Source: an uncultured Bacteroidales bacterium (GTDB taxonomy: Bacteria; Bacteroidota; Bacteroidia; Bacteroidales; Muribaculaceae). From it: DNA of 64,000 nucleotides. The position numbers and the translations under genes are program-made. Below, in pieces: positions 47,196 to 64,000 of this stretch. The stretch spans positions 124,001 through 188,000 of the forward strand of contig CADCFN010000001.1 of the NCBI GenBank assembly GCA_902800715.1, written 5' to 3'. The notes beneath the pieces were generated by a model. The model saw nothing but the letters and a program-made list of their open reading frames with translations. It was not told where the DNA came from and did not search any database. How positions within the stretch are numbered: position 1 is the first letter of the stretch; each line of letters begins with the position of its first letter.

Positions 47196-47287
47196 CGAGC
47201 CACAGGCTCGCAATACCCCGACGGCCTAACCGCCCAGCGGTTGCAACGGCCTCCCGTTCGGGTATTGCGGGCCTGCGGCTCGCTTAA
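47196..47287 (+). repeat. REP-like palindromic element, right copy
   Basis: Same orientation and, apart from one base, the same sequence as 46116-46207, exactly 1080 bases away. It starts 12 bases after the transposase stop and precedes the hpt promoter region. The single difference (47270 G) turns one stem A-U pair into G-U. Confidence 0.85.
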
Positions 47288-47345
47288 TTTTTCCTCTTCC
47301 TTGAAAAAACTGAGACCCCAAAACCGATAACTGAAAACTTCTTTG

Positions 47346-47353
47346 TACCTTTG
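47346..47353 (+). promoter_or_regulatory. -7 box for hpt
   Basis: TACCTTTG lies 20 bases upstream of the hpt ATG, so the leader is very short. Confidence 0.6.
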
Positions 47354-47373
47354 TGCTTTAATTCTGTAGACAA

Positions 47374-47916
47374 ATGGAAGAAGTTACTTACCAGGGTCTG
47401 ACGTTTGAGCCCTACATCAGACGTGAAGAGATTGCCAAGCAGGTGTATCGCCTTGCCCAGGAAATCAAGCGCGACTATGCCAACGAGAATCCCCTGTTCC
47501 TGTGTGTCCTTAATGGTTCCTTTATCTTTGCAGCCGACCTGTTCCGCGCGTGCAACCTGCATGACGCCGAAATCACTTTCATCCGCTTCAAGTCCTATGA
47601 GGGGATGTCATCGACGGGCAACGTGAAAGAAATCATGGGTCTCACCGAGGACATTACGGGCCGCAATGTGCTCATTGTCGAGGACATCATCGACAGCGGT
47701 GTCACTGCTGCCCAACTGCGCAAGGAGCTGGATAAGCACAATCCTAAGTCTGTGAAAATGGTATCGTTGCTGTTCAAGCCCGATGCGCTCACGGTGGGTA
47801 AAGCTCCCGAATATGTGGGCTTTGAGATTCCCAACAAGTTTATCTTGGGCTACGGACTGGACCTTGACGGGCTCGCCCGCAATCTGCCCGACATTTACGT
47901 CCTGAAAGGCCAATAA
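47374..47916 (+). CDS. hpt: Hypoxanthine phosphoribosyltransferase, 180 aa
   Basis: The PRPP-binding loop reads VLIVEDIIDSGVTA (residues about 96-109), and the earlier CVLNGSFIFAADL and IRFKSYEGMSSTG segments fit bacterial HPRT. The enzyme joins hypoxanthine or guanine to PRPP in purine salvage. It is followed by adk 59 bases downstream on the same strand; both serve purine nucleotides and may share a transcript. Confidence 0.95.
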   Translation: MEEVTYQGLTFEPYIRREEIAKQVYRLAQEIKRDYANENPLFLCVLNGSFIFAADLFRACNLHDAEITFIRFKSYEGMSSTGNVKEIMGLTEDITGRNVLIVEDIIDSGVTAAQLRKELDKHNPKSVKMVSLLFKPDALTVGKAPEYVGFEIPNKFILGYGLDLDGLARNLPDIYVLKGQ

Positions 47917-47975
47917 GTTTCAGAGAGAATACACATTTATATATAATAGAACAATTAACAAGAGAATTCAAGATT

Positions 47976-48551
47976 ATGTTGAACATTGTCATTTTTGGTG
48001 CCCCCGGATCTGGCAAAGGCACCCAGAGCGATAAACTCATCGACCACTACAAACTGTTCCACATCTCAACCGGCGATGTACTGCGCGACAACATCAAGCG
48101 CGGCACCGACCTGGGCAAGACCGCCAAGGGCTACATCGACCAGGGCCAACTCGTGCCCGACGAACTCATCATCGACATCCTGGCACAGGTGCTTGACGAC
48201 AATAAAGACAACGCCAAGGAAGGCGTCATCTTTGACGGATTCCCCCGCACCATTCCCCAGGCCGAAGCTCTCGAACAACTGCTTGCTGACCGCGGTACCC
48301 GAATTGATGCCGTTGTGGGACTTGAAGTTCCCGAGGAAGAACTCATCAAGCGCATCCTGCTGCGCGGCCAAATGAGCGGCCGCTCAGACGACAACGAGGA
48401 GACTGCCCGCAAACGTCTGGAAACCTATCACAACCAGACTTCACCCCTCAAGGCCTACTATGAGGAGCAGGGCAAATACCGTGCTATCGACGGCGTTGGC
48501 TCCATCGACGATATCTTTGACCAGATCAAGGAAAACCTCGACAACCTTTAA
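47976..48551 (+). CDS. adk: Adenylate kinase, short form, 191 aa
   Basis: The P-loop GAPGSGKGTQ is at residues 8-17; ISTGDVLRDNIKRGTDLG, FDGFPRTIPQAEAL and the LID region RGQMSGRSDD follow. The LID is the short type without zinc cysteines. The enzyme makes two ADP from ATP and AMP and is essential. It ends with a clear terminator. Confidence 0.97.
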   Translation: MLNIVIFGAPGSGKGTQSDKLIDHYKLFHISTGDVLRDNIKRGTDLGKTAKGYIDQGQLVPDELIIDILAQVLDDNKDNAKEGVIFDGFPRTIPQAEALEQLLADRGTRIDAVVGLEVPEEELIKRILLRGQMSGRSDDNEETARKRLETYHNQTSPLKAYYEEQGKYRAIDGVGSIDDIFDQIKENLDNL

Positions 48552-48561
48552 TTGAATGATT

Positions 48562-48605
48562 CACGGGAACGTGCGCCAACGAAGGCACGCTCCCGTGTAT
48601 TTTCT
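48562..48605 (+). terminator. Rho-independent terminator after adk
   Basis: CACGGGA (48562-48568) pairs with TCCCGTG (48591-48597), with an inner CGTGC/GCACG helix and one mismatch, then TATTTTCTCC. The yihY gene starts 20 bases later. Confidence 0.7.
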
Positions 48606-48616
48606 CCTAGAGAAAG

Positions 48617-49945
48617 ATGGGCGACAAGAACAAGACTAACCTGTGGGAACGCGTCATGCAGAACATCACGTACTGCATCAATGGCGTGTGGAACGACAAG
48701 AGGGCACTGCTATCGGTCAAGATTGTAAAGATTATCAACTTGAGCGTGCGCTCGTTCTTGGACCGTGACTTGCAGTTGCGCTCTTGCGCCCTCACCTACA
48801 ACACGGTGCTGGCAGTCATCCCGGCGCTGGCGATGCTGTTTGCCATCGCCCGAGGGTTCGGATTCCAGAACCTGATGCAAAGCGAGCTGCTACGCTATTT
48901 CCCCGCTCAGCGCCAAGCGCTGGAGACCGCGCTGACCTATGTGGACAATTATCTGGCTCAAGCATCACAGGGCATCTTCATCGGTATCGGCCTCATTTTC
49001 CTGTTGTGGACCCTGGTATCACTCATGAGCAACGTGGAAGACACGTTCAACCACGTTTGGGGCATCTCTGCCAAGCGCTCGCTACAGCGCAAATTCACCG
49101 ACTATACGGCACTGTTCCTGCTGCTGCCCGTACTGATGGTATGCTCAGCTGGTATCACTATCTTCTTGAGCGACGCGGTGCAGAGCGTGTTTAAGGGCCA
49201 TTCCGTCACCCCGATGATGCACCGCCTGCTGACGATGACGCCCACGGTTATCTCATGGCTGATATTCACTGCCGCCTACTACCTCATCCCGAACACCAAG
49301 GTCAACCTGAAGGGAGCATTGTTTGCCGGCGTCTTGTGCGGCACATTATTCCAAGGCGTGCAGTGGCTCTTCGTGACCGGCCAGGTTTACGTATCGAAAT
49401 ACAACGCCATCTACGGCAGTTTTGCCTTCCTGCCCCTTGTGCTGGTATGGATGCAGTTGTCATGGCTCATCACCCTGGCGGGCGTGTTGCTGACCTATGC
49501 TTGGCAAAACTTTGACCTCTTTGCCTACAACGATAAGGTCAAAGGCATCTCGCAGACCTATGCCGACAATATGGCGATTGCCATTCTGGCACTGGCTGCC
49601 AAGAAATTCAAACATCACGAGCCGGCATTGACGCGCTCCACGCTTATTAACGAATATGACATCCCGAGCCTGCTCGCCGATACACTGCTGGACCGTCTGT
49701 GCCATGCCGGCCTGCTCAGCGCCATCAGCCATAACTCGTCTGATGACGACAAGGCATTCCAGCCTGCCTTTGATCCCGATGAGCTCACCGTCTATACCTC
49801 CATCAATGCGCTGGCCGACCAGGGCGACAGCAATTTCATCCTCAAGGCAGACAAGCGCTTTGCCAAACTCCTGGCGCAAATCGAAACAATGAAAAAGAAA
49901 CAACAAGACGCTGTCGATGACGTACCGCTGCTGGAACTGCTCTAG
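48617..49945 (+). CDS. yihY: YihY/BrkB-family inner-membrane protein, 442 aa
   Basis: About six membrane helices in the first 310 residues, with the family blocks LRSCALTYNTVLAVIPALAMLFAIA, LWTLVSLMSNVEDTFNHVWG, and AIYGSFAFLPLVLVWMQLSWLITLAGVLLTYA. This is the UPF0761 pattern; function is unsettled. A soluble C-terminal domain of about 130 residues (KAADKRFAKLLAQIE) extends it, as in other Bacteroidetes copies. Its start overlaps the terminator T run, so it depends on its own or read-through transcription. Confidence 0.9.
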   Translation: MGDKNKTNLWERVMQNITYCINGVWNDKRALLSVKIVKIINLSVRSFLDRDLQLRSCALTYNTVLAVIPALAMLFAIARGFGFQNLMQSELLRYFPAQRQALETALTYVDNYLAQASQGIFIGIGLIFLLWTLVSLMSNVEDTFNHVWGISAKRSLQRKFTDYTALFLLLPVLMVCSAGITIFLSDAVQSVFKGHSVTPMMHRLLTMTPTVISWLIFTAAYYLIPNTKVNLKGALFAGVLCGTLFQGVQWLFVTGQVYVSKYNAIYGSFAFLPLVLVWMQLSWLITLAGVLLTYAWQNFDLFAYNDKVKGISQTYADNMAIAILALAAKKFKHHEPALTRSTLINEYDIPSLLADTLLDRLCHAGLLSAISHNSSDDDKAFQPAFDPDELTVYTSINALADQGDSNFILKADKRFAKLLAQIETMKKKQQDAVDDVPLLELL

Positions 49946-50051
49946 CCTGCGGTATGGCATGCCCAGAGGCACTGACAGGCAAAACAGGGCTTCAGTAACC
50001 AGAAAAACCAGAAAAAAACAGGGAAAAGGCGTGCATGTCAACAAAATGTTG

Positions 50052-50059
50052 TATCTTTG
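50052..50059 (+). promoter_or_regulatory. -7 box for tRNA-Leu
   Basis: TATCTTTG matches TAnnTTTG, 20 bases before the tRNA 5' end. Confidence 0.6.
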
Positions 50060-50079
50060 CGCCCGAAAATAGACCGGAT

Positions 50080-50164
50080 GCCTGAATGGTGGAATCGGTA
50101 GACACGAGGGACTTAAAATCCCTTGGCCATTGCGGCCGTGTGGGTTCAAGTCCCACTTCAGGTA
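50080..50164 (+). tRNA. tRNA-Leu (anticodon TAA)
   Basis: An 85-base type II tRNA: acceptor arm GCCTGAA/TTCAGGT closed by a G-U pair, anticodon stem AGGGA/TCCCT with loop CTTAAAA (anticodon at 50114-50116), a long variable arm with the stem GCCATTGCGGC, and a complete T arm GTGGG TTCAAGT CCCAC. No CCA is encoded. It reads UUA codons. Confidence 0.95.
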
Positions 50165-50170
50165 CAAGCA

Positions 50171-50208
50171 CGAGGCGGTTAGTAATCAGTCAATTACTAA
50201 CCGCCTCG
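50171..50208. terminator. Strong hairpin after tRNA-Leu
   Basis: A perfect 16-base stem (50171-50186 with 50193-50208) and six-base loop. It ends the tRNA transcript and also lies just after the stop of the convergent NAD(P)HX repair gene. The T run is weak (CTTATTCTTT). Confidence 0.7.
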
Positions 50209-50234
50209 CTTATTCTTTACTGCAAACGTGCAGC

Positions 50235-51755
50235 CTACTTCATCACCTCGATGAAAGCCTTGCCGATGTTATTGACGATGTCGCTGGCCACCATGCCATA
50301 GGTACCCTGCTCCTGCTCAGCCAAATCGCCAGCCAAGCCATGCAGGTACACACCGAGAACAGCCGACCAGTCGGCACTATAATCTTGGGCGATGAGCGCC
50401 GAGATGATACCGGTAAGAACATCACCGCTGCCCGGAGTCGCCATGCCGGCATTGCCGCTGCTATTGACATACACCTTGCTATCGGGACGCACCGTCATGG
50501 TATAGTGGCCCTTGAGCACGATGGTAATGTTATAGAGCTTGGAAACGTCGATGGCCTTCTTGAGACGTTCCTCGTCGGTGGCATGCTCGCCGAACAAGCG
50601 GTCAAACTCGATGGCGTGCGGTGTGATGATAGAACGATGAGGAATGCTCTTGAGCAGCATCGGGCGCCGCGAGATACAGTTCAGAGCATCGGCATCCAAC
50701 AGGCAGGGACGCTTGAAGTTCATGATAAAATGGTGTACCGCATCAAGCGTCACGTCATCAACGCCCATACCAGGTCCAAGAGCGACAACGCTGTAGGTGT
50801 GACGCAGGTCGATTGCACTGGTGACGATATCGTTGCGGTCGGGCTCGAAAAGCGCCTCGGGGACTGCCGTCTGTAACACCTGATAGCCATAGCGCGGTGC
50901 ATGAACCGTCACCAGGCCGGCACCAGCGCGCAGTGCACCCCTCGCAGCCAGAACAGCGGCACCCATCATGCCGTAGCTACCCGCCACGAGCAGTACCGTG
51001 CCGTTGTCATACTTGTTGATGAACGGATTGCGGGGCTTGAGCACATCATGCACATCATTGCGCTCGATGAGATAGAAATCGGTCGGCGTGCGTGCCAAGC
51101 TCTCATGGTCAAGCTCCAAGTCAAGCACCTGGCACTCGCCAACGAACTCGGCATTCTCCGAGAAATAGAACGAGAGGCGCTTGCTCTGATAGGTAAGCGT
51201 GAGATTGGCACGGATGATATTGCGACGGTCATTACCCATGTTCCACTCACCGAACATGCCCGACGGCAGGTCAATCGACACCACGTATGCGCCACTGGAA
51301 TTGATGTACTGCACCAACGATGTATATCCGCCCTTGAGCGGCGTGCGCAATCCGCTGCCGAACAGGCCGTCAACCACCACGTCGTTCTCATCCAGTGCCG
51401 GCGGGTTAAAGGTCTGAATCACCTCAATAAAGTCAATATTTTCACCGACGGTTTCCAGCAAGCGGTCACGGTTGGTGAGACAGCAAGGTGACAATTGTGC
51501 CGACTTGATATTAAACAGGTATACTTCAGGCCTATAGCCCTGCTCATACATGATGCGAGCTACAGCAAGTGCATCGGCACCGTTATCACCAGGGCCGGCA
51601 AAAATGACGAAGCGCTGGGATGTGCGCCAACGCGAAATCAGCTCATAGGAGACAGCCGAAGCGGCCCTCTCAATGAGGTCAAGCATCTGTAAATTATTTT
51701 TTTCGAGGGTGCGGTCGCCGATACGACGCAGTTCATCGTTGGTGAATATCTTCAT
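50235..51755 (-). CDS. nnrDE: Bifunctional NAD(P)HX repair enzyme (epimerase/dehydratase), 506 aa
   Basis: The N-terminal half (MKIFTNDELRRIGDRTLEKNNL, FAGPGDNGADALAVARIMYEQGY, SIDLPSGMFGEWN) is the YjeF_N epimerase, which interconverts R- and S-NADHX. The C-terminal half (VLLVAGSYGMMGAAVLAARGALRAGAGLV, CLLDADALNCISRR, GNAGMATPGSGDVLTGIISALIAQ, ending LAEQEQGTYGMVASDIV) is the ADP-dependent dehydratase, with the GSGDVL catalytic site. The fusion repairs damaged NAD(P)H. It stands alone, convergent with tRNA-Leu. Confidence 0.95.
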   Translation of the reverse strand: MKIFTNDELRRIGDRTLEKNNLQMLDLIERAASAVSYELISRWRTSQRFVIFAGPGDNGADALAVARIMYEQGYRPEVYLFNIKSAQLSPCCLTNRDRLLETVGENIDFIEVIQTFNPPALDENDVVVDGLFGSGLRTPLKGGYTSLVQYINSSGAYVVSIDLPSGMFGEWNMGNDRRNIIRANLTLTYQSKRLSFYFSENAEFVGECQVLDLELDHESLARTPTDFYLIERNDVHDVLKPRNPFINKYDNGTVLLVAGSYGMMGAAVLAARGALRAGAGLVTVHAPRYGYQVLQTAVPEALFEPDRNDIVTSAIDLRHTYSVVALGPGMGVDDVTLDAVHHFIMNFKRPCLLDADALNCISRRPMLLKSIPHRSIITPHAIEFDRLFGEHATDEERLKKAIDVSKLYNITIVLKGHYTMTVRPDSKVYVNSSGNAGMATPGSGDVLTGIISALIAQDYSADWSAVLGVYLHGLAGDLAEQEQGTYGMVASDIVNNIGKAFIEVMK

Positions 51756-51807
51756 TGTGGTTGAGTGAGTTTCAAGTGTTAAAAATCGAGCAATTATAAA
51801 TGGCTGA

Positions 51808-51815
51808 CAAAATTA
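51808..51815 (-). promoter_or_regulatory. -7 box for the NAD(P)HX repair gene
   Basis: On the minus strand TAATTTTG, 53 bases before the ATG. The region up to 52045 (290 bases) holds only this and the next promoter, with no other gene found. Confidence 0.5.
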
Positions 51816-51998
51816 CTTCTTTTTTAGCGTATAGAGGAGAAAAAAAACGAAAATCTATCGAAATAAAATCTTAAAAAATGTGTTGCATGCAATCAGTGCC
51901 ATTTGGAAAAGTGTCAGCTAAATGCCGAATTCAGCGGTGTACTCAGCTAAAATATTGACTTTTTTCTTGTTAGTGCCCTTCCTTATCAACATTTTTTG

Positions 51999-52006
51999 TA
52001 TCTTTG
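51999..52006 (+). promoter_or_regulatory. -7 box for the second CotH-dockerin gene
   Basis: TATCTTTG lies 39 bases upstream of the ATG at 52046. Confidence 0.6.
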
Positions 52007-52045
52007 CAGCCCAAATAAACATTTTATATCAACGTTTAACCAGCA

Positions 52046-53779
52046 ATGAGAAAACATCTACTTCTTTTCATTACACTCTTGTTAACGGGGCTGACCTCCT
52101 GGGCGCAATCGCTCAACATCGGAGGCCATTACGCTGCTCTTGACACGATTAACAACATGTGGTTATGCAGTGTGCCGCAATCATTATTCGGCAACGACTT
52201 CACAGCTACCGTAAACTACGGTGACGAAGTGAGCGACTTTGCTATCGACAGCGTTGCTGTTGCCAGCGGCGAGGAGTTCACCTTCCTGGGAATGAATGGT
52301 GGCACCCGATATGCAGTAACCTGCCAGATGGGTGACAGCCTGTTCACCGGATACATCACGTTCACATGGTTGCCCGTGTTGGAGATTTCGTGCGCCTTAG
52401 ACAACGCTTACCAGTACGGTACAATCTATGTCAGCGAGCCCGACTCGGCACTTGCCCAACCGCTGCCGGTGAAGATGAAAATGCGCGGTGGTGCAACCAA
52501 CACTCCCGATAAGAACAAGCGCAACTTCCGCTTGAATTTCATCAATGAAGACAGCACGAAGTGCAACCGCCGATTCCTCGGCCTGCGCAAAGACAACAGC
52601 TGGATTCTGGATGCCGGTCAGATGGACTTCCTGCGCGTTCGCAACCGCGTGAGCACCGACCTGTGGCTCGATATGGCACGTCGCCCCTGGTATGCCGACA
52701 CCCTGCCCAATGCCCACAACGGCTCACGAGGCAAAATGGTCGAGGTCATCCTCAATGGTGGCTATAACGGTATCTACAACATGTGTGAGCCCATTGACCG
52801 CAAGCAGATGAAAGCCAAGAAGTATGATGAGGTGAACAGGGAATACCACGGACAATTATGGACCGGATACAAGTGGACACGCACCGTGTGCATGAGTGAC
52901 CCCAGTCCTGTACCCGTTCACAACTACATCTGGGACGGTTTTGAAGTTACCTATCCCGACTGGAAAGACATTCATCGCGCCAACTGGACCACGCTGTCCG
53001 ACGCCGTATTCTTTGCAGGCCGTGCCGACTGGGACAAGCGCTTGCTCAGCGACAGCATACAGGATTATTTTGACATCCCTGTGATGCAGGATTACTTCAT
53101 CTTCATCGTTGCCCTTCAGGCCTTGGACAACGAGAGCAAGAATATTTACTATGTGTGCCACGATAGAACTGAAAACCGCCGACTGACCATGGTACCTTGG
53201 GACTTGGACGTTTGTCTGGGCGCCAACTTCAAACCGTCGTCAAATTATCCTAACATGGTGAAGCCCGACCGTCCCCTTGACTGGATTACCCATCTTCCCA
53301 TGTATGACTTGTTCTTCAGCGTCAAGACCTATCATAATGAAGTTCTTGAGCGTTATCACGAGTTGCGTAAGACCTGGCTTGACACCGAGAACCTGGTAAA
53401 GCGCTATCGTGATGCCATCACCGAGTTGCAGGAGTGTGGCGCCGCCTCACGCGAGGAGGCCCGCTGGAGTGGCGACACCGACCTGGCACGCAAGGAGCTC
53501 AACCTGGGCAACGAGATGGACTACGTTGAGAACTGGATTCGCCAGCGCATGGAATATCTCGATGAGTTTGTATTCATCCCGTTAGAAGAATTCCCCAAGG
53601 GTGACGTTAACGGTGACGGCGAGGTTACCATTGCCGACGTCAACGCCGATATCACCATCATCCTGGGCGCCAAGTACGATGATGCTATGATGGAACGTGC
53701 AGATGTGAACGAGGATGGTGAGATTACCGTTAGCGACATCAACGAAATCATCAAGATCATCATGAATAACCCATCTTGA
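52046..53779 (+). CDS. Secreted CotH-like protein with C-terminal dockerin, 577 aa
   Basis: A signal peptide (MRKHLLLFITLLLTGLTSWA) and a beta-rich N-terminus lead to a CotH domain: VKMKMRGGATNTPDKNKRNFRLNF, NSWILDAGQMDFLRVRNRVSTDLWLDMA, GGYNGIYNMCEPIDRKQMK, and MVPWDLDVCLGANF. Kinase-like folds of this kind phosphorylate other secreted proteins, but the target is unknown. The C-terminal 65 residues are a dockerin (KGDVNGDGEVTIADV, RADVNEDGEITVSDI). It has no type IX tail. It resembles the CotH-dockerin at 19540 only in domain plan. A strong terminator follows, then the island boundary. Confidence 0.88.
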   Translation: MRKHLLLFITLLLTGLTSWAQSLNIGGHYAALDTINNMWLCSVPQSLFGNDFTATVNYGDEVSDFAIDSVAVASGEEFTFLGMNGGTRYAVTCQMGDSLFTGYITFTWLPVLEISCALDNAYQYGTIYVSEPDSALAQPLPVKMKMRGGATNTPDKNKRNFRLNFINEDSTKCNRRFLGLRKDNSWILDAGQMDFLRVRNRVSTDLWLDMARRPWYADTLPNAHNGSRGKMVEVILNGGYNGIYNMCEPIDRKQMKAKKYDEVNREYHGQLWTGYKWTRTVCMSDPSPVPVHNYIWDGFEVTYPDWKDIHRANWTTLSDAVFFAGRADWDKRLLSDSIQDYFDIPVMQDYFIFIVALQALDNESKNIYYVCHDRTENRRLTMVPWDLDVCLGANFKPSSNYPNMVKPDRPLDWITHLPMYDLFFSVKTYHNEVLERYHELRKTWLDTENLVKRYRDAITELQECGAASREEARWSGDTDLARKELNLGNEMDYVENWIRQRMEYLDEFVFIPLEEFPKGDVNGDGEVTIADVNADITIILGAKYDDAMMERADVNEDGEITVSDINEIIKIIMNNPS

Positions 53780-53834: not shown

Positions 53835-53859
53835 CCACATTTCCATTAACACAAAGTAA

Positions 53860-53886
53860 AAACGCAGCCATAATGTGACTGCGTTT
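53860..53886 (-). terminator. Minus-strand terminator next to the left tRNA fragment
   Basis: AAACGCAG (53860-53867) and CTGCGTTT (53879-53886) form an 8-base stem, followed on the minus strand by TTTTACTTTG. It lies just outside the truncated tRNA end at 53894 and would fit as the terminator of a tRNA transcribed leftwards. The intact tRNA-Lys has a different terminator at 61598-61619. Confidence 0.6.
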
Positions 53887-53892
53887 CACTGA

Positions 53893-53918
53893 GTGATTCG
53901 CGTGGGGCTCGAACCCAC
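53893..53918 (-). other. Attachment site, left: 26-base copy of the tRNA-Lys 3' end
   Basis: These 26 bases equal 61621-61646 exactly. They include the T arm, the 3' acceptor strand and the discriminator base of tRNA-Lys (53894-53918), and nothing of the rest of the tRNA. The sequence after base 53918 is unrelated to the tRNA. Confidence 0.8.
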
Positions 53919-53939
53919 ATCTAATTATCAAGTAGTTAG

Positions 53940-54475
53940 TCAGTCCACAAAAAGTTCCTTCACTTAACGCTTGTAGCTCTTACGCTCGTCCGTATCTTCT
54001 AGACGGGCTGGCAGTATTCGCTAATTTTGTTAAGCATTTTGGAATCTGTCGGGAAGGTCACGTTCTTCTCCTAGATGGTGTGATCGATGAAAGCCGTCTG
54101 TTCCTAGTCGGACTTCCGCCCACCCTATCCTTGTCCCTATCCTCCTCAGATTTCTTCTGACCGTCTATTAGGAGATTCACACGGATACTCTCATTCTGTA
54201 TCATCTCAATGTCAGCCTCACAGATGCGGCGGCGGAAATGGATAAGCTCCGAAAAAGACACAAAAAGAAGCTTTCGTGAAGGACTCCATAGCACAGAAAT
54301 ACAGGTAATAGGCATTCTCGAAAAACTGGGCCACGACCTGCTCATCGGAAACACTACGCACATGCTTCAGTATTAAAAACCATGCTATCAGGCGGATTGG
54401 TTTCGGAGGACGACCGTTTTCTCCGCTGATATTTGGAGAAAAGGCAGCCTCAAAGGCAGACCAGTCATCAAGTTA
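53940..54475 (-). mobile_element. Decayed IS5-family transposase fragment
   Basis: Read on the minus strand in several frames, the sequence gives DDWSAFEAAF, GRPPKPIRLIAWFLILKH, then after a frameshift ELIHFRRRICEADIEMIQNESIRVN, then AFIDHTI, a stop, EKNVTFPTDSKML and finally ERKSYKR and VKELFVD. These follow the order of IS5-type transposases (the D-T-T-V-Q-E-K-N-I-T block holds the first catalytic Asp, here altered to DHTI). Only the N-terminal part remains, and it ends 22 bases from the left attachment copy. There are at least two frameshifts and stops, so it is dead. Confidence 0.75.
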
Positions 54476-54782
54476 GCGACTTGAACAGGGGATTATGAAT
54501 ATCCAACTAGTCTCGAGATTCCAAAACAGGGCGCTCTGCCGTTGTTGTCAAGGAGATTTGTACATATTCAATCTGCAAGCCCTAATAAAGCAAATTCATG
54601 AAATATTGAGGACATATACAAATCCAAACACAAACAACCATCAGACTCATAGACATTTAAGTGATCTTTAGGGAACAACTATTTAAGTTAAGCTGCTCAC
54701 TTGCTAAGTCGAAGGATTTTTCTGTTACTATGCAAAGACACACAAAAAGGTTTATTAATCAGTTATTGTGTCAGCATTTTTG

Positions 54783-54812
54783 TTGAAAATGTGAAATAAT
54801 TATCTATCTTTG
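54783..54812 (+). promoter_or_regulatory. Promoter for the exopolysaccharide operon
   Basis: TTG (54783-54785), a 19-base spacer and TATCTTTG (54805-54812) form a full promoter. The first gene starts 314 bases later, so the message has a long leader that contains the intron-like relic. The span 54476-54782 shows no gene. Confidence 0.68.
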
Positions 54813-54956
54813 CAGCAGAATTGTGTGTTACGAGCATAAATCGACTGCTGTCGGGTCGTGGTTCGCAACTTCGGAATGGATAATGGAGGTAGGGGCATCG
54901 CATTCAGTGAATAAGCACTGATTGCAAACAACAATTAAACATTGAGTAAGCATGGA

Positions 54957-55028
54957 GAATCGTGTGATGGGAGACTGTCAAGCATGGTTCTGTGAGAGTG
55001 GAGAGTGAAATTCCTTCCAGCTATTCGA
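54957..55028 (+). mobile_element. Group II intron domain V/VI relic
   Basis: Bases 54957-54990 form a 34-base hairpin with the size and order of domain V: GAATCGTGT, GATGG, a GAGA loop, CTGTC, and AGCATGGTTC. Domain V of active introns has AGC at positions 2-4; here it is AAT, so the catalytic triad is lost. It is followed by TGTGAGAG and a smaller hairpin ending CTATTCGA, which matches domain VI and the 3' splice site. No reverse transcriptase and no domain I were found. It now sits inside the leader of the glycan operon. Confidence 0.55.
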
Positions 55029-55125
55029 AGAAAGACTTTGGAGGGCGCATAAATAGGTTCTGCCCTCTTCACGGCAAGAAAATGAATTTATAGAATCCTT
55101 CTTTAGGATTGTTTAAAAGAACATA

Positions 55126-56205
55126 ATGAAGAAAGTCTTAATAGTCATTGACACCATGTATGGAGGTGGTGCAGAGCGAGTTGCCAGCAGGATTGCCAAT
55201 GCTTTGTCGGTCGATAATGAAGTGGTCATTTTTACTCGTTCTACGCCTGACATGTATCAGTTAGCAGAAAACATCAAGGTATTGCATTTTACATTTCCTC
55301 CACTTCTTTTTACCTTTCGCAGAAGGTGGGCGAGATTCTTAGCACGACCAATAAACCACTACTATGGGTATTGGTATCTTATCAATTTGCTTGAAGACTT
55401 AAAACGAAAGGAAAAACCTGATGTGACTTTAAGTATGATGAAAGTAGCAAGTATTATGAATGCTTTTGCAAAAGGATCAGGGCTTAAAGTATTATCAGAA
55501 AGGAACAATCCCTCCAAAAAAAGTTTTAGGTACAGACTATGGAGCAATTTATGTTTTAGAAGAGCCGACCGCGTGATATTTCAGACTGAGACCATCCGTA
55601 ACCACTACTCTTCTTCCATCAGGAAGAAGGGGGTTGTGGTGTCTAATCCTGTTCTTGTCGACTGTCAGGCAACTGGCGGCAGTAAGCGCATAGTCACAAT
55701 GGGAAGATTGAATCCGCAAAAGAATCATACCATGCTGATCAAGGCTTTTGCATTGTTCTCAAAAGAACATCCTGAACATACGCTGCACATATATGGCAAA
55801 GATAGTGGAGAAGAGAATCTAAACCCTCTGATTGAGAGTCTATCACTCACTGACAAGGTGTTCATTGAAGGCTTCAAGAATCCTGTTCATCCATTTATCG
55901 TTGATGCTGAGCAGTTTGTCCTCTCATCAGATTATGAAGGAACTCCCAATGCTCTGCTGGAGGCTCTGATGATGGGGTTTCCTTGTATTACCACGGCCTT
56001 TGAAGGCACCCGTGAACTGCTCGGTGAGGATGCACCCTGCTTGGTGACTCCTGTAGGTAATGAGGTGGCTCTTGCAGGAGCCATGGCTCGCCTGGCTGAC
56101 GACTCCGCCTTGCGGGAAACTCTTTCAACACGTGCAGTACAGTTTGCTCATGCCTTCTCAATGGAAAAGATTGTGCCGAAATGGCGTAATGTGTTATTTT
56201 CGTGA
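55126..56205 (+). CDS. GT4 family glycosyltransferase, 359 aa
   Basis: A GT-B fold enzyme: the N-terminal domain begins KKVLIVIDTMYGGGAERVASRIANAL, the C-terminal domain has VTMGRLNPQKNHTMLIKAFALF and the donor-binding E(x7)E site in SSDYEGTPNALLEALMMG. Family GT4 enzymes build exopolysaccharide or O-antigen chains from nucleotide sugars in the cytosol. First gene of the operon. A lower-GC codon use than that of the flanking genes is visible. Confidence 0.9.
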   Translation: MKKVLIVIDTMYGGGAERVASRIANALSVDNEVVIFTRSTPDMYQLAENIKVLHFTFPPLLFTFRRRWARFLARPINHYYGYWYLINLLEDLKRKEKPDVTLSMMKVASIMNAFAKGSGLKVLSERNNPSKKSFRYRLWSNLCFRRADRVIFQTETIRNHYSSSIRKKGVVVSNPVLVDCQATGGSKRIVTMGRLNPQKNHTMLIKAFALFSKEHPEHTLHIYGKDSGEENLNPLIESLSLTDKVFIEGFKNPVHPFIVDAEQFVLSSDYEGTPNALLEALMMGFPCITTAFEGTRELLGEDAPCLVTPVGNEVALAGAMARLADDSALRETLSTRAVQFAHAFSMEKIVPKWRNVLFS

Positions 56206-56245
56206 TGTGTTATAATTAATGAACATCATTATAAAATCTACGAAA

Positions 56246-56380
56246 ATGAAAATCATAGATATACATAAGATTGAAAAACCGCATTGGAAAAAGATGGGTG
56301 TGTTGTTCACCATACTCTGGATGGTTACGTCCTTATGTAAATGTAATTATTTTAAACAAATTGTACGTTTTAGAACATGA
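56246..56380 (+). CDS. 44-residue membrane peptide overlapping the next start
   Basis: The frame reads MKIIDIHKIEKPHWKKMG, then a hydrophobic helix (VLFTILWMVTSL), then a basic tail. Its stop TGA shares four bases with the ATG of the next gene (ATGA at 56377-56380), which is a mark of translational coupling. There is no known match. It might be a true small membrane peptide or the start of a lost polymerase or flippase. Confidence 0.5.
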   Translation: MKIIDIHKIEKPHWKKMGVLFTILWMVTSLCKCNYFKQIVRFRT

Positions 56381-58014
56381 GTTCTATAAACTTTGACATA
56401 TCAGGGTGGGAGCATGTCTTACTCGGCAAGCCAGATATGCTCAAATTGGCTGATGGGCTGGATAGTTTTTTGTTTTATTATCGTAGAATCGATCCTAAGA
56501 TAGAGAATTTTGTACTGAGCGCCACCTTAGAAGTTGTGGATGCATCTGGTGCCGATTTCCAGACTGGATACGGACTCATGGTTGTTGATACTATAGCATG
56601 TCCCTCGCCTGATAACCGCTCCCGCAACCATGCCCTTTTAGGGCGATTCCGTACCATTGAAGGACTTAACTATGGAATTGGTCTTCGCGTTGTGGGTGGA
56701 TATACAAATTCTGAAGCTGCTTGGCAGCGAGGTAGACGGCATTTGGATCCTTCACGTTTGTTCAACACTCAGTGCCTTGTGGATGAGATTCGTAATGGTG
56801 ATTGTCACCAATTCAGACTGGCTAAGACAGATGATGGATTGGAGGCATCGCTTATCACAGATGCCGAGACGGAAAGCATTCGCTTCCCTGGATGCGATTT
56901 CTTGTTGAAACAGGATCAAAAGTCCATCTATGTGGGATTTGCTTTAGCAGGAGATATCGAATTAAACATTACAGACATTCACTTTGAGACGTTGCCTGGA
57001 AAGCTGAGCCATACACCAGAAGAGGCGATTGGGCACTTCTTTCCTGACTATCCCTTCAGCAGAAATAGTTTCAATGGAATAGAACGATTTGAGAGTAAAT
57101 CATCCCAAAGCGTACGGATTACACCTGATGACGGCCCTGGAAAACTGGCTTCGGCAATACTCAGCGCTGATGCTGGCTGCGAAATCATTTTGGCAGACGG
57201 GGTTTATGGCAGAGGACCATACTACATACCGAAGACTTGTTCTGGCACTCACCAACATCCAGTCGTACTAAGGGCAGAGCATCCAGGGAAGGCAGTCTTT
57301 GACGGCTCAGATATTGACACCCACTTGCCGCTCATGGTTCTAAGAGCGGATTATTGGATACTGGATGGTCTTGTGTTCCGTGAAGCTCCGTCTTCTGGAC
57401 TGATAGTCTGCGGCTCACATAACATAGTGCGTCAATGTGAGGCATACGGAAATGGGGACACAGGAATCCTGATAATCGCTTTCCCCAATAGTGCTAGGGG
57501 GGATTGGCCTTCTTGCAATACCGTCGATAGGAGTGTATCCCACGACAATTGCGATAGTGCTCGGAAAAATGCAGACGGTTTTGGGGCTAAACTCTCAGTA
57601 GGGGAAGGTAACGTGTTTTGCTCATGTAAAGCCTATCACAATATTGATGATGGCTTTGATCTCTATACTAAGGATATTATCGGTCCCATCAGCCCTGTCT
57701 CTTTTATCAACTGCGAGGCTTGGAACAACGGATGGCTATCTGGAGAGGCTATACCCAAAAGCGGTAAACGTTCAGGTAGCGGATTTAAATTAGGAGGAGA
57801 GAATCTGGAGGTTGCTCATGTTCTTAAGAACTGTATTGCTCACCATAATGCCCGCAAGGGATTTAATAAAAACTCCAATCCAGCTCCCGTTTTGAAAGGA
57901 TGTCGCGAATGGGATAATCTTTTCGATGGCAATCGTAAGCACGGCATTTTGCTCAGTTCTTTATTCAGACCATTTGTCTGGGTTTCGTCTTTGATGAGGA
58001 AATTCTTTAGATAA
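56377..58014 (+). CDS. PL9-like right-handed beta-helix protein of the glycan cluster, 545 aa
   Basis: From about residue 240 the chain is a parallel beta-helix with the blocks KNADGFGAKLSVGEGNVF, YHNIDDGFDLYTK, GSGFKLGGEN and ARKGFNKNSNPAP, the layout of PL9-family pectate lyases and related epimerase-like folds. The first 240 residues form an unassigned beta-rich domain. Unlike PL9 enzymes it has no signal peptide, and it ends in a hydrophobic, basic segment (LLSSLFRPFVWVSSLMRKFFR) that could lie on the membrane. Within a glycan synthesis operon it may modify or cut a nascent polymer. The catalytic calcium-binding residues cannot be verified by eye. Confidence 0.72.
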   Translation: MSSINFDISGWEHVLLGKPDMLKLADGLDSFLFYYRRIDPKIENFVLSATLEVVDASGADFQTGYGLMVVDTIACPSPDNRSRNHALLGRFRTIEGLNYGIGLRVVGGYTNSEAAWQRGRRHLDPSRLFNTQCLVDEIRNGDCHQFRLAKTDDGLEASLITDAETESIRFPGCDFLLKQDQKSIYVGFALAGDIELNITDIHFETLPGKLSHTPEEAIGHFFPDYPFSRNSFNGIERFESKSSQSVRITPDDGPGKLASAILSADAGCEIILADGVYGRGPYYIPKTCSGTHQHPVVLRAEHPGKAVFDGSDIDTHLPLMVLRADYWILDGLVFREAPSSGLIVCGSHNIVRQCEAYGNGDTGILIIAFPNSARGDWPSCNTVDRSVSHDNCDSARKNADGFGAKLSVGEGNVFCSCKAYHNIDDGFDLYTKDIIGPISPVSFINCEAWNNGWLSGEAIPKSGKRSGSGFKLGGENLEVAHVLKNCIAHHNARKGFNKNSNPAPVLKGCREWDNLFDGNRKHGILLSSLFRPFVWVSSLMRKFFR

Positions 58015-58085
58015 TCTATAGAGCACAATATGGAAATAATATTAAATTACTAATACTATCAAGAATTAATATATAATGATGGACT

Positions 58086-58694
58086 ATGATTCGAACGAAA
58101 GATGATCTTATTTTTTATCTCGAAAAAGACAGAGAGGCATTAAAAAGACCTGCAAGAAAAAGATTCGCAGGGTCTTTCAAAGATATTGTAAAACGAGCAC
58201 TAGATCCCGACGAGATATGGCGTTTTGAACGTGTCTTGAGATATACAGAATATTACTCCAGAAATTTTGGGGGAATTAACAGATTTCTGTACTGGTGGTA
58301 TTATTTTAAATATAAACGTCTTTCTCTAAAACTAGGATTCTCGATACCACTCGATGTGTTTGGACCGGGGTTGTCTATTGCTCATTATGGAACAATTCTG
58401 GTAAATCCCAAAGCACGTGTTGGTAAGAATTGTAGATTACATGCTTGTGTTAATATTGGTGAAAGTAAGGGCAAAGTTCCACAAATAGGGGATAACTGCT
58501 ATATAGGTCCTGGGGGGATTATGTATGGAGACGCAAGAATAGCTAATAATATTACAATTGGAGCAAATTCTGTAGTTAACCGTAGTTTTGAGAAGGAAGG
58601 AGTCGTTATCGCAGGTAGCCCTGCTAAAATAATTAGAGAAGATAGCTCGCCTTGGGTAACGTGGCTTTTACCCAAAATAGGCGAGAACCAGTGA
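58086..58694 (+). CDS. Serine acetyltransferase-like hexapeptide-repeat protein, 202 aa
   Basis: An N-terminal helical part is followed by a left-handed beta-helix with hexapeptide repeats (FGPGLSIAHYGTILVNPKARVGKNCRLHACVNIG, IGDNCYIGPGGIMYGDARIANNITIGANSVV). This resembles CysE-type and polysaccharide O-acetyltransferases. In a glycan cluster the second role is more likely than cysteine synthesis. It is 71 bases from the previous gene. Confidence 0.82.
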   Translation: MIRTKDDLIFYLEKDREALKRPARKRFAGSFKDIVKRALDPDEIWRFERVLRYTEYYSRNFGGINRFLYWWYYFKYKRLSLKLGFSIPLDVFGPGLSIAHYGTILVNPKARVGKNCRLHACVNIGESKGKVPQIGDNCYIGPGGIMYGDARIANNITIGANSVVNRSFEKEGVVIAGSPAKIIREDSSPWVTWLLPKIGENQ

Positions 58695-58762
58695 GGCGAG
58701 TCCTAATGAGAAAATACAGATTTCAAACCAAAACTAAAAAGTATATATAAAACTTGCCTGTT

Positions 58763-59821
58763 ATGAAGTGTTTAGTTACAGGAGCAGCTGGCTTTATAGG
58801 CTTTCATCTTGTTAAGCGGCTATTAGAAGATGGTAATGCTGTTGTAGGTATAGATAACCTAAACAATTTCTATGATGTAAACCTGAAATTGGGAAGACTC
58901 TCTGAATTGGGGATTACCTATTCTGAGGGCATAAAAGGTGCTATGTGTAGCATCAAGTACCCTCTATTTACATTTAGGAAAATCGACCTGCAAGATCGTG
59001 ATTCCTTGAATGAACTATTTGCTCAAGAGAAGTTTGAAATAGTTGTTAATTTGGCGGCACAAGCGGGTGTGCGATATTCTATCGATCACCCCTATGAATA
59101 CGTGAATAACAATATCACAGGTTTCCTGAATGTGTTGGAGTGTTGTCGGCATTATCCTGTGAAACACTTGGTATATGCGTCTTCAAGCAGTGTGTATGGT
59201 GGCAATACAAAGGTTCCATTCTCTGAGGATGACAGGGTGGATAATCCAGTGAGTCTATATGCTGTTTCCAAGAAGTCTAACGAGCTGATGGCTCAAGTTT
59301 ACAGTCATCTCTTTGACATACCCACAACAGGTTTGCGATTCTTTACGGTATATGGTCCTTGGGGCCGGCCAGATATGGCTTATTTCTCTTTTGCCGAAAA
59401 CATGACGAGGGGGGAGAAAATAAGGCTTTATAATGAAGGGAAACACCTAAGAGACTTTACTTATATAGATGATGTGATAGAGGGTATCTGCAAGGTGCTG
59501 AAGAGAGTGCCTGATCATCCGATAGTGTATAACATTGGGAACAATCATCCTGAAGAGTTGCTTGATTTCGTAAAAACCCTTCAGGAAGAGTTGGTGAATG
59601 CCAAACTTCTCCCCGAAGACTATGATTTTGCGGCTCATTGCGAACTTCTTCCAATGCAACCGGGTGATGTGCCAATGACGTATGCCGACACATCCAAGTT
59701 GGAGACCGATGTGGGCTATAAGCCTTCTACATCATTGAGGGATGGTTTGCGTTATTTCGTGGAATGGTACGCTGCCGAGATATCTCATAATTGCCCGATA
59801 TCTAGCAACATTAAATTTTAA
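58763..59821 (+). CDS. NAD-dependent sugar epimerase, UDP-glucuronate 4-epimerase-like, 352 aa
   Basis: The ATG at 58763 is chosen over a TTG three codons earlier. The Rossmann glycine motif is GAAGFIGFHL, and the catalytic SSSVYGG and YAVSKKSNEL (Tyr and Lys) are present. The early NNFYDVNLKLGRLSEL block and the insertion VNLAAQAGVRYSIDHPYEYVNNN are typical of UDP-GlcA 4-epimerases (Cap1J/WbpP-like), which supply UDP-galacturonate for capsule or exopolysaccharide. The assignment to the exact sugar is inferred. Confidence 0.88.
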   Translation: MKCLVTGAAGFIGFHLVKRLLEDGNAVVGIDNLNNFYDVNLKLGRLSELGITYSEGIKGAMCSIKYPLFTFRKIDLQDRDSLNELFAQEKFEIVVNLAAQAGVRYSIDHPYEYVNNNITGFLNVLECCRHYPVKHLVYASSSSVYGGNTKVPFSEDDRVDNPVSLYAVSKKSNELMAQVYSHLFDIPTTGLRFFTVYGPWGRPDMAYFSFAENMTRGEKIRLYNEGKHLRDFTYIDDVIEGICKVLKRVPDHPIVYNIGNNHPEELLDFVKTLQEELVNAKLLPEDYDFAAHCELLPMQPGDVPMTYADTSKLETDVGYKPSTSLRDGLRYFVEWYAAEISHNCPISSNIKF

Positions 59822-59841
59822 CTAACATTGTTTTATACAAA

Positions 59842-60951
59842 ATGAGATTTGTCTTTCATTTATTAAGCCCAAATACTTTAGGTGGTGTTGAACGCTCTAT
59901 TATCACTCGTTGCAATTTTTTAGTGAATCATGGCCATGAGGTGTATATCCTGTGTAAGGAGTATTCCGATCCAAAGGGTTTCAGTGTAGCTCCAATTGAT
60001 TCACGGGTGAATGTAGTGGACTACATCGATTTGATGCATCATGAGAAGCCTGGCTTTAGTTATACACTCAAATGGCTTCTGGACAAGTTGAAGTATTTAT
60101 ATGTGATAGACCGGTTTATTAATCGCATAAAGCCAGACTTTATTATAACACGCCATGTTCTTAGCTTATATGAATTTTTCTATCTGCCTCACCATGGGGC
60201 GAAGTTTATCGCAGAATGGTCAACTACTATTGATACAAAAGAAGTACCATATGAGTTCAACCATAATTTGTGGTTCAAGTGGCTATCATGGAATGTAGAT
60301 AGATACTTGTTTTTGACAAAATATGACCAACAAACATTTCCCGGTCCCAAGAATAAGGCAGTGCTTATCCCTACGGCAGTTGCTCTCTCAGAAGACTGTT
60401 CTCCTTTAACCAGCAAGGTTGTTATATCGACAGGTCGTTTACATCCTATTAAGAACTATCATGCATTGATTGCAGCTTGGAGCCAAGTTGCTTCACGGCA
60501 TCCTGACTGGCAATTACATATATATGGAGAGGGGGAACTACAAGATGAATTATTGAAACAAATAAAGGAGCTTAGACTAGAAGGTAAAGTCATTCTCAAA
60601 GGAAGAACTGATGACGTACATTCTGTATTGCTTGATGCGAGTATCTTTGCACTAGCATCTAAGGGAGAAGGCTTTTCAAATAGTATTTTGGAAGCTATTG
60701 CACATGGATTACCGATTGTGGTCACCGAGATGCATTGTACGCATGACCTTATGGAGGGATTCGAAATAGGGTATAAAGTACCTCAAGATGACATTTCACA
60801 ACTGGCTGCTGGTATTAATTCTCTCATAGAGGACGAATCATTACGACGACAAATGGGAGCAAATGCTCGCCGCAGAAGTCTCGATTATTCTTGTGAGAAT
60901 GTTTTTTCTCAGCATTTGGCACTTTATCGCCAGCTGTTGTCAAAGAAATAG
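59842..60951 (+). CDS. GT4 family glycosyltransferase, 369 aa
   Basis: The start MRFVFHLLSPNTLGGVERSIITRCNFLVNHGHEVYILC and the C-terminal VVISTGRLHPIKNYHALIAAWSQVASRHPDWQLHIYGEGELQDELL and SKGEGFSNSILEAIAHGLPIVVTE mark a GT4 glycosyltransferase with an intact E(x7)E donor site. It is the last intact gene of the operon, 20 bases from the epimerase. It is similar in plan but not in sequence to the GT4 at 55126. Confidence 0.9.
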   Translation: MRFVFHLLSPNTLGGVERSIITRCNFLVNHGHEVYILCKEYSDPKGFSVAPIDSRVNVVDYIDLMHHEKPGFSYTLKWLLDKLKYLYVIDRFINRIKPDFIITRHVLSLYEFFYLPHHGAKFIAEWSTTIDTKEVPYEFNHNLWFKWLSWNVDRYLFLTKYDQQTFPGPKNKAVLIPTAVALSEDCSPLTSKVVISTGRLHPIKNYHALIAAWSQVASRHPDWQLHIYGEGELQDELLKQIKELRLEGKVILKGRTDDVHSVLLDASIFALASKGEGFSNSILEAIAHGLPIVVTEMHCTHDLMEGFEIGYKVPQDDISQLAAGINSLIEDESLRRQMGANARRRSLDYSCENVFSQHLALYRQLLSKK

Positions 60952-61597
60952 TTGCGAATTGGTGACTTGCTCCAAATCAAGGTCTGATGGAGCCTATAAA
61001 CGTATTGAATAGAGTCATTAAGTATGAAGAATGGAGCCTATAATTCAGCCATTTGTAACTTAACAGCACTGTTGGATACTATAGGATTCCCACCTGCAGT
61101 ACAACCGTATTCTTAAGTGACATAAAAGAATGATGATGTCTTAATGAATTGCATGTGGGTGTGATACATGTCAGTCATTTTTCAGTCATACCATCCTATA
61201 CCTCTGTTTCTTAAAACCGTACACTTTAGATACTATTCATCGTATTCTTTTGCAAGCTAATTGAGCCACACCATAATGGAATCATTAGATGTTGTCTTAA
61301 TATCGACTGCCTACATTTGGGGTTTAAGCAAATAGACAAATAATACCTGCCTGTTTTCACTATTAACAGAAACTACTAATCGACAATGGCGATTTTCAAG
61401 GGTTGGCTAACTTGGGGATCTTGTGATTCTAGGTATCGTTGCTCCAATACTCACTGAATCCATACAACTACGTCCTGCTTCTGATTATGCGTTGATTGTT
61501 ACCGAATCTCAACACAGCTGGAACTCTAGTCAATCGCTAGAATTCTTTTAATAAACATAAAACCACTTGAAAAACATTTGATTTTAGGGATAAAAAA
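60952..61597. other. Decayed gene-free stretch, 646 bases
   Basis: No long frame exists in any direction. Short frames such as MKNGAYNSAICNLTALLD (from 61024) and IVAPILTESIQLRP (from about 61436) read like scraps of coding sequence with stops in between, and AT content is high. I cannot name a source. It may be the remains of the rest of the island, including its integrase. Confidence 0.5.
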
Positions 61598-61619
61598 ATG
61601 ACGGGCAATTACCCGTCAT
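61598..61619 (-). terminator. Rho-independent terminator of tRNA-Lys
   Basis: On the minus strand an 8-base stem (ATGACGGG at 61598-61605 with its complement at 61612-61619) and six-base loop are followed by TTTTTTTA. It starts three bases past the tRNA 3' end and lies on the island side of the repeat. Confidence 0.8.
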
Positions 61620-61620
61620 C

Positions 61621-61646
61621 GTGATTCGCGTGGGGCTCGAACCCAC
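61621..61646 (-). other. Attachment site, right: tRNA-Lys 3' end
   Basis: These 26 bases include the T arm, 3' acceptor strand and discriminator of tRNA-Lys and are identical to 53893-53918. Integrated elements commonly use a tRNA 3' end as attachment site and rebuild the gene on insertion. Confidence 0.78.
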
Positions 61647-61694
61647 GACCCCATCCTTAAAAGGGATGTGCTCTACCTGCTGAGCTAGCGAATC
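61622..61694 (-). tRNA. tRNA-Lys (anticodon TTT)
   Basis: Read on the minus strand, 73 bases: acceptor GATTCGC/GCGAATC, D arm GCTC/GAGC, anticodon stem CATCC/GGATG with loop CTTTTAA, T arm GTGGG TTCGAGC CCCAC, and discriminator A. No CCA is encoded. It reads AAA and AAG. Confidence 0.97.
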
Positions 61695-61838
61695 TCCCAA
61701 AAAGCGGTGCAAAGGTACTGCCTTTTTCTTTACCCGCCAAATATTTTGGCTGTTTTTTACTTTTCCGCTTTGAATTAGGACCTTAAGGCCCCTTAAGGAC
61801 CATAGGGGGATTTAGGGGCCTTGAAGTCGTTTTGGTCT

Positions 61839-63056
61839 TTACTGGGCGACAATCTTGCAGATTTCGATGATGGTCATCATAGCCTTCTCCATCGAGGGGA
61901 TGGGCACATACTCGAAGCGTCCGTGCATGTTCATGCCGCCGGCGAAGATGTTGGGGCAAGGCAGGTTCTTGAACGAGAGCTGGGCGCCGTCCGTACCGCC
62001 GCGGATGGGCTGCACCTTGGGCGTAACACCGGCGTTCTCCATGGCCTGCTTAGCGATGTCGATGATGTTCATCACGGGTTCAATCTTCTCGCGCATGTTG
62101 TAGTACTGGTCCTTAATCTCGCAGGTCGCGCAATCGGGGAACTCGGCATTGATTTTGTTGCACAGGTGCTCAATCTCGCGCTTGCGGCTCTCAAAGCGGG
62201 CGCGGTCGTGGTCACGGATGATATAGTTCAATGTGGTCTGCTCGACACCGCCTTCCATGCGGATGAGGTGATAGAAACCCTCATAGCCCTCGGTGTGCTC
62301 GGGAGTCTCCCAACGCGGCAGCATCATGGCAAACTGCATAGCGACACGCATTGAGTTAATCATTTTGTGCTTTGCGGCTCCAGGGTGTACGTTCAGGCCC
62401 TTGAAGGTAATCTTGGCGCTAGCGGCATTGAAGTTTTCAAACTCCAGCTCACCTACGGCACCACCGTCCATCGTATACGCCCAGTCGCAGCCGAATTTCT
62501 CCACATCGAAGTGGTGGGCGCCTAAGCCGATTTCCTCGTCGGGGTTGAAGCCCACGCGGATGTTGCCGTGCTTCACCTCGGGGTGTTCCTGCAGCCACTC
62601 GACAGCGCTCAGGATTTCGGCGATACCGGCTTTGTCGTCGGCACCGAGCAGGGTGTCACCGCTGGTAACGATGAATTCCTGGCCCTTGTAGTCGTTCATC
62701 TCGGGGAACTGAACGGGGTCGAGCACGATGCGGGGCTCCTCGCTCAGGACGATGGGCTCGCCCTCATACTTAACGATGCGGGGCTTCACGTCGTGGCCGC
62801 TCATGTCGGGGGCGGTGTCCATGTGGGCAATAAAGCCGACGGTGGGCACGGGCTTGTCGGTGTTGGCGGGCAAGGTGGCAAACAGGTAGCCGTTGTCATC
62901 GAGCGAGATGTCGCTCAAACCCATGGCATGCAATTCACGCTCCAGTTCCTTGGCAAACACCATCTGGCCCGGTGTGGAGGGAGTCAAGTTGGTGAGTTCG
63001 TCACTCTGGGTGTCGAACTTCACATACTTCAAAAATCTGTCAACTAATTTTGTCAT
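61839..63056 (-). CDS. pepT: Peptidase T (tripeptidase), 405 aa
   Basis: M20-family aminopeptidase. The metal-binding residues are visible: HMDTAPD (first zinc and catalytic Asp), [10 protein letters not shown] (bridging Asp), [14 protein letters not shown] (catalytic Glu) and, at the end, [13 protein letters not shown]. The C-terminal [25 protein letters not shown] is typical of PepT. It removes the N-terminal residue of tripeptides, complementing the two peptide importers in the window. It has its own promoter. Confidence 0.96.
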
Positions 63057-63093
63057 AGTGATATTGTCTTGTTAATGGTTATTATCCAATCGG

Positions 63094-63101
63094 CAAAGAT
63101 A
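63094..63101 (-). promoter_or_regulatory. -7 box for pepT
   Basis: On the minus strand TATCTTTG, 38 bases before the ATG. Confidence 0.6.
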
Positions 63102-63228
63102 CAAAAAAGACTTTAGACTAAGGAACATAGACCTTAGTTTTTCTTTTATGACTGCTTGTTCACTATACGGACCTTACAATAAACGAGGGGCGGAAGTGTT
63201 AAAAAAGCGTTAAATTCGAGAGAAAATA

Positions 63229-63259
63229 TTGACAAATCAAAAACACAAATATATCTTTG
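63229..63259 (+). promoter_or_regulatory. Promoter for the SPFH gene
   Basis: TTG (63229-63231), a 20-base spacer and TATCTTTG (63252-63259), 60 bases upstream of the ATG at 63320. Confidence 0.7.
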
Positions 63260-63319
63260 CGATATCAAAATGATATCACTTTAAAACAACGAATACTAAC
63301 TTTTAAATATTTATCTATT

Positions 63320-64000
63320 ATGGAAACGAACGAATTCAACTTCAAAGGCGTAACAGTAAACGGATTCTTGATGCTGTTTGTAGTCATTCTGTTACCGATA
63401 CTCGCCATCTGGGGGATTTACCAGAGCATTCTCCTGTTTGATATGCCTAATGCTGGCGCTTTGCCCACTGTACTGCTCATCGTGAGCATCCTGCTCCTCA
63501 TCGGCACCTTAATTATATTAGGCGGTTTCCTGATGCTTGAGCCCAACACCGCCAGGGTGACTACCTGGTTCGGCAAATACAGCGGCACATTCACCCGCAC
63601 GGGCTTCTACTGGATCAACCCCTTCTACGGCACCAAGAAAGTCTCGCTGCGTGCCCGCAACCTGGACGCCTATCAAGGTCAACGACAAGGTGGGCAACCC
63701 CGTGATGATTGGTCTGGTACTAGTGTGGAGACTGAAAGACACCTACAAGGCCCTGTTTGAGGTAGACTCACAGACGATGGCTTCGACCGACGGCACCTTG
63801 AGCGGCAACGCCAAGGGCCTGATGCGCGCCCTTGAGGACTTCGTGAGCGTGCAGAGCTACGCTGCCTTGAGACAGGTAGCCGGACTGTATGCCTACGACG
63901 ACAATGACGAGAACACAAAAGAACTGACACTGCGCTCGGGTGGCGAAGAAATCAACGAGCAGCTCGAGGAGAGACTCAACGAGCGCCTGTCTCTGGCAGG
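63320..64000 (+). pseudogene. SPFH/band-7 membrane protein, frameshifted and cut by the right edge
   Basis: The ATG at 63320 starts METNEFNFKGVTVNGFLMLFVVILL; two membrane helices and the start of an SPFH domain follow (LEPNTARVTTWFGKYSGTFTRTGFYWINPFYGTKKVSLRARNLDA). At about 63668-63673 the frame breaks, and the domain resumes in another frame as PIKVNDKVGNPVMIGLVLVWRLKDTYKALFEVDSQ, and runs on to the end of the window. The join lacks a few bases relative to the expected order, as though two or five were lost. SPFH proteins form membrane scaffolds. Whether the gene is dead or the break is a read error is open. Confidence 0.8.

Follow-up and report, generated by a model that had tools for sequence, protein, structure and literature searches.

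The segment described here lies in a 64,000-nucleotide stretch of DNA (the window) from a draft genome of an uncultured Muribaculaceae bacterium of the rumen. It extends from a tRNA-Lys gene to an exact copy of the last 26 bases of that gene, found in the same orientation 7.7 kb downstream, and it holds five open reading frames for sugar-related functions together with relics of mobile DNA (Table 1). The coordinates of the tRNA gene are those of ARAGORN, and Rfam places its end at 61622. With up to three mismatches allowed, the two copies of the 26-mer were the only matches in the window, and 0 of 100 shuffles gave two; they were also the only matches in the assembly of this organism (27 contigs, 88.9% complete). 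The exact tRNA-Lys copy noted in the original prediction is thus real, unique in both window and assembly, and not a repeat found at many sites of the genome.

Table 1. Features of the segment and its flanks (positions in the window; a dot marks features listed by position without a strand).
Feature	Position	Strand	Evidence or remark
CotH-dockerin gene, left flank	52046..53779	+	PF08757, PF00404; adjoins tRNA-Lys in empty sites
Old chromosomal terminator, displaced to far end	53859..53887	-	Homologous to empty-site hairpins
attR, distal copy of 26-base repeat	53893..53918	.	Repeat search
Relic of DUF772 (IS) transposase	54221..54472	-	Pfam PF05598, E 7.7e-9
Polysaccharide block, also at another G097 locus	54683..61001	+	L108 8318-14164
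Leader with collapsed group II intron (5' part joined to D5-D6)	54798..55029	+	Rfam, congener matches
GT4-type glycosyltransferase	55126..56205	+	PF00534
Right-handed beta-helix protein, lyase-like	56377..58014	+	PF14592, PF13229
Hexapeptide acetyltransferase	58086..58694	+	PF00132
NAD-dependent sugar epimerase/dehydratase	58754..59821	+	PF01370
GT4-type glycosyltransferase	59842..60951	+	PF00534
Integrase relic, 40 residues of N-terminal part, two in-frame stops	61399..61518	-	Matched by 9 of 9 integrases
Conserved tRNA-side end of element family	61566..61619	.	54 bases, 81-91% identical to L037, L079, L085, L087
Element-brought terminator, tRNA side	61597..61620	-	Motif shared with integrase loci
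attL, tRNA-side copy of 26-base repeat	61621..61646	.	Repeat search
tRNA-Lys(TTT), integration target	61621..61694	-	ARAGORN, Rfam; 3' end is tRNA-side att site
M20 peptidase (PepT-like), right flank	61839..63056	-	Pfam; survey anchor

Pfam and Rfam bear out the gene content first read from the letters, namely glycosyltransferases, an epimerase, an acetyltransferase, a beta-helix protein, and IS and intron relics. The label "exopolysaccharide island" is generous: no flippase, polymerase or initiating transferase was found among the five block proteins, and the combination that makes a complete exopolysaccharide or capsule locus (initiating transferase, flippase and polymerase, or an exporter) is not present among them. 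As had been anticipated, the segment is more A/T-rich than its surroundings, with a GC content of 0.413 against 0.515 in the remaining window, and a GC3 of 0.28-0.43 in its five genes against 0.64-0.79 in eight flank genes. Codon usage agrees, each island gene fitting that of the flanks worse than every one of the eight. The intron relic in the leader, scored alone by Rfam, reached 38.6, just under the gathering score of 40, but parts of group II introns in a congener (G002: L128, L131-L134) match it. Five partial intron matches were obtained from that genome, and four lie no more than 40 bases from where a contig starts, which would suit a multi-copy intron.

Of 101 genomes of the genus, 39 carry the tRNA end in exactly the form seen in the window. 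The survey comprised 41 loci: 39 from 38 of these genomes (one, G021, contributes two, and G056 was excluded because its contig ends at the site), plus L048, which has a one-base variant, and the locus of G097; it covers few of the other 62 genomes. At 22 of the 41 loci the end of the CotH-dockerin gene lies within 200 bp of tRNA-Lys, whereas ten have a homologous tyrosine integrase at the same place. Five more, the window among them, have the terminator typical of the integrase-bearing loci and no integrase gene like theirs. The remaining four are L036 and L042, with a glycosyltransferase-like gene in between, L100, with a dockerin gene in between (this dockerin near the tRNA belongs to another gene, and the CotH end is about 2 kb away), and L048, where no CotH gene was found. 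The bin of G021 holds both an empty locus (L093) and an occupied one (L094); the bin may mix strains or be contaminated (contamination is listed at 5%).

The ten integrase-bearing loci (L037, L040, L079, L085, L087, L090, L091, L094, L099 and L103) define a family of elements. Nine of them could be measured and span 5.0-6.4 kb between their att sites; in L103 no distal att site was recognised. The integrase frame is uninterrupted in nine of the ten, that of L094 being matched in two pieces. The L037 integrase has Pfam phage-integrase and SAM-like domains. At a threshold of 80% identity to it, the 101 genomes contain ten integrases, all at the tRNA-Lys locus, and the next best is 49% identical. 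Other genes of these elements encode a DUF3987 protein, which PHROGs matches to helicase and primase, an HTH protein that matches an excisionase (both in L040), and a RusA protein (L099, Pfam). Aligned over 98-100% of their length, the elements of L040, L090, L091 and L094 show 93-98% identity, as against 85.6-88.9% for the host genes of these loci (five of six pairs comparable); the family has moved recently. A phage origin was considered and rejected: the L037 integrase is matched by 42 phage records, but at less than 60% identity in every case, and none covers 80% of it. One scan of viral contigs returned two distant relatives (39% and 33%), and no solved structure matched at E 0.001.

It had been stated that no integrase remains in the segment. 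This is not the case, since a short interrupted piece of the N-terminal part of an integrase is preserved near the tRNA. The search was carried out with nine integrases, the interrupted one of L094 being omitted, and the best match was to residues 22-61 of the L079 integrase (75% identity, E 1.7e-16). Elsewhere in the window no match was better than E 0.13, and 200 shuffles of the relic stretch gave none at 1e-3. Between the relic and the element end, the window is 146 bases shorter than L079, and the integrase gene has therefore been cut on both sides. The window has no complete integrase gene beyond these 40 residues and is therefore a relic rather than an active member of the family; elsewhere in its genome there is no strong integrase homologue at E 1e-60. 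It carries the tRNA 3'-end repeat on both sides of the segment and, on the tRNA side, the family-specific end with its terminator.

The two minus-strand terminators that flank the segment have the most G-C pairs among the 14 terminator-like sites of the region, where shuffles gave a mean of 5.4 sites. The motif of the terminator on the tRNA side, called at three substitutions or fewer from one or other of two element-derived forms, occurs in 10 of 10 integrase loci and in none of the 26 loci with neither an integrase nor a relic end. For the far terminator, a homologous hairpin stands beside tRNA-Lys at the empty sites L038, L041, L088, L093 and L098, which were picked for alignment since they looked alike. 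Further empty sites have other hairpins (L033 and L080, for example), and terminators at distal ends and empty sites vary among species, and only some resemble those of the window. The 10 of 10 against 0 of 26 argues that the element brought its own terminator and displaced the old one, as the original prediction proposed. The empty site that it foresaw, tRNA-Lys followed by a homologue of the far terminator and by the CotH-dockerin gene, was recovered in these five relatives, with CotH adjoining at all 22 loci counted above. The element terminator also stands beside tRNA-Lys at L039, L086, L092 and L097, without an integrase or a recognised distal att site. These four loci are scars of lost elements, and the window is the only one of the five terminator-only loci where a distal att site is recognised.

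At L036 (17230-18285) and L042 (8457-9470; loci as oriented in the analysis), the gene between CotH and tRNA-Lys, named glycosyltransferase-like by reading, has neither repeat nor element terminator beside it, and it seems to have arrived by ordinary recombination. It is a different gene from those of the segment, whose genes were not found at any of the 41 loci in this place without a repeat. These two loci lend some colour to the idea that the repeat in the window is a chance tRNA fragment or a duplication and that its sugar genes came by ordinary recombination. We regard this as very improbable, because the window has the element-specific terminator, the 54-bp element end and the integrase relic. 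Together with the empty and occupied sites of congeners, the repeat, the element end and the relic uphold the proposed integration at the tRNA-Lys 3' end.

The distal end fits the family less closely. In nine living elements the distal att site shares its first 14 bases with tRNA-Lys and then continues ATTA.., whereas the window repeat is exact over 26 bases; the window element was thus a variant, or the site was altered later. Past attR, about 20 bases resemble the distal ends of the nine living elements in a MAFFT alignment. Beyond this short aligned stretch, 53919-54700 has no similarity to living elements by blastn or tblastx.

The origin of the sugar genes is a separate question. The block is found again, collinear and at 87% nucleotide identity, in the nearest relative compared, G097, which is 84.9% identical to the window over 45003-53754 and 96.2% over 61622-64000. 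This second copy lies on L108, a contig of the MAG RUG12435 whose coordinates coincide with G097 contig C2, and it lacks 58130-58585, most of the acetyltransferase gene. It is not beside tRNA-Lys; its neighbours, named by reading, are a glycosyltransferase gene, a large TPR-type gene and an frr-like gene. Within the intron-relic leader of this copy, ARAGORN called a tRNA-Pyl (L108 8619-8706) that is probably false. The tRNA-Lys site of G097 is empty and also without a terminator, and may itself be a deletion. The beta-helix gene occurs in 2 of the 101 genus genomes, those of the window and of G097 (there at this other locus), and in two further rumen MAGs at 72-73%, adjoining a homologue of the first glycosyltransferase.

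Could these genes have been the cargo of the element, which would have lost its integrase and replication genes afterwards? Their position between both att sites and their foreign composition would agree with it, as would the layout of the family, in which the integrase is next to the tRNA and leaves space for cargo beyond. However, a search of the ten integrase-bearing loci matched none of the sugar genes, the block is a unit at a G097 locus without tRNA-Lys, and one of its ends now lies where part of the integrase was lost. The low GC also belongs to the block and not to the elements, since the L108 copies of four block genes have a GC of 0.42-0.45 and the nine living elements 0.45-0.52. We therefore consider the cargo explanation unlikely. 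Since G097 has the block, in collinear form, at a non-tRNA locus and has an empty tRNA-Lys site, the sugar genes were probably not the original cargo. The original prediction of one element bringing in polysaccharide genes is thus not supported; the block also ends inside the element ends.

The presence of the block at another place in the nearest relative, in combination with a draft assembly in 27 contigs, might also raise the suspicion that the segment is a false join of unrelated pieces. This we find hardly credible, as the element end and the integrase relic stand in the expected order on the tRNA side, and the genome of the window has the place syntenic to the L108 locus without a block. 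Four-fold-site divergence from G097 is 0.20-0.23 in four block genes, within the 0.16-0.49 of eight flank frames (pepT not being one of these); the block may have relocated after descent from a common ancestor, or it may have been exchanged near the split. The bounds of the block have no direct 9-mer in common; one inverted 9-mer was taken as chance. On either side of the G097 block stands a diverged copy of a stretch of about 57 bases (L108 8008-8063 and about 14307-14363) that is found upstream of an frr-like gene.

Taken together, we favour, with a probability of about 0.8, the reading that the segment is what remains of a tRNA-Lys integrative element, in which a block of five sugar genes that moved separately took the place of the core. 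The att repeat, the element end, the terminator exchange, the integrase relic and the empty sites support it at the level of sequence. A tyrosine integrase would have recombined the att core of the element with the T arm and acceptor end of tRNA-Lys, leaving the tRNA whole with the element terminator beside it, and the old terminator and the second copy of the tRNA end 7.7 kb off. A later loss would have removed most of the core and with it some nine tenths of the integrase gene, and the block would then have come to stand in its place, the element having entered first. The island is no longer mobile by its own means and probably persists for the function of its sugar genes. This reading leaves unaccounted the 12 extra identical bases of the repeat, the stretch 61001-61399 and the way in which the block moved. 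A more speculative version, to which we give little credence, sees two nested movements, that of the tRNA-Lys element and that of the five-gene block relocating as a unit, with the block now carriable in trans because both flanking att sites survive and related integrases circulate in the genus.

One chromosomal site thus offers a natural series, from empty through integrase-occupied and scarred to occupied by a dead element that surface-sugar genes now fill. That terminator and element are associated without exception suggests that elements of this family supply a terminator for the tRNA gene that they enter. The case is also a reminder that tRNA repeats may point to cargo where the genes they enclose are something else.

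Among open-licence literature titles, including those on rumen Bacteroidales, we found no description of this tRNA-Lys family. Its ten congener elements share with the window the tRNA-Lys site, the tRNA-side end with its terminator and a homologous integrase in the same orientation; they differ in that their integrase is complete or nearly so, that they have replication-type genes and that the sugar genes of the block are absent. NBU1 targets tRNA-Leu, and hence a tRNA gene as does the window family. Like the other Bacteroides integrative mobilizable elements, it has a tyrosine integrase (PMC5704250). It also has a MobP relaxase (PMC5704250), in contrast with the family described here, where no relaxase or known transfer function was matched in 14 proteins from four living elements (Pfam; six of them also PHROGs). 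The 10K genomic island of Riemerella anatipestifer, whose integration and excision were shown experimentally (PMC6764341), is likewise from Bacteroidota and lies beside a tRNA gene, with direct repeats and a tyrosine integrase; as described there, it differs in its tRNA-Arg target, its 53-bp repeat and its working integrase (PMC6764341). Decayed integrative elements that target tRNA genes are an ordinary and known kind of genomic island, and the segment is one whose history is unusually clear.
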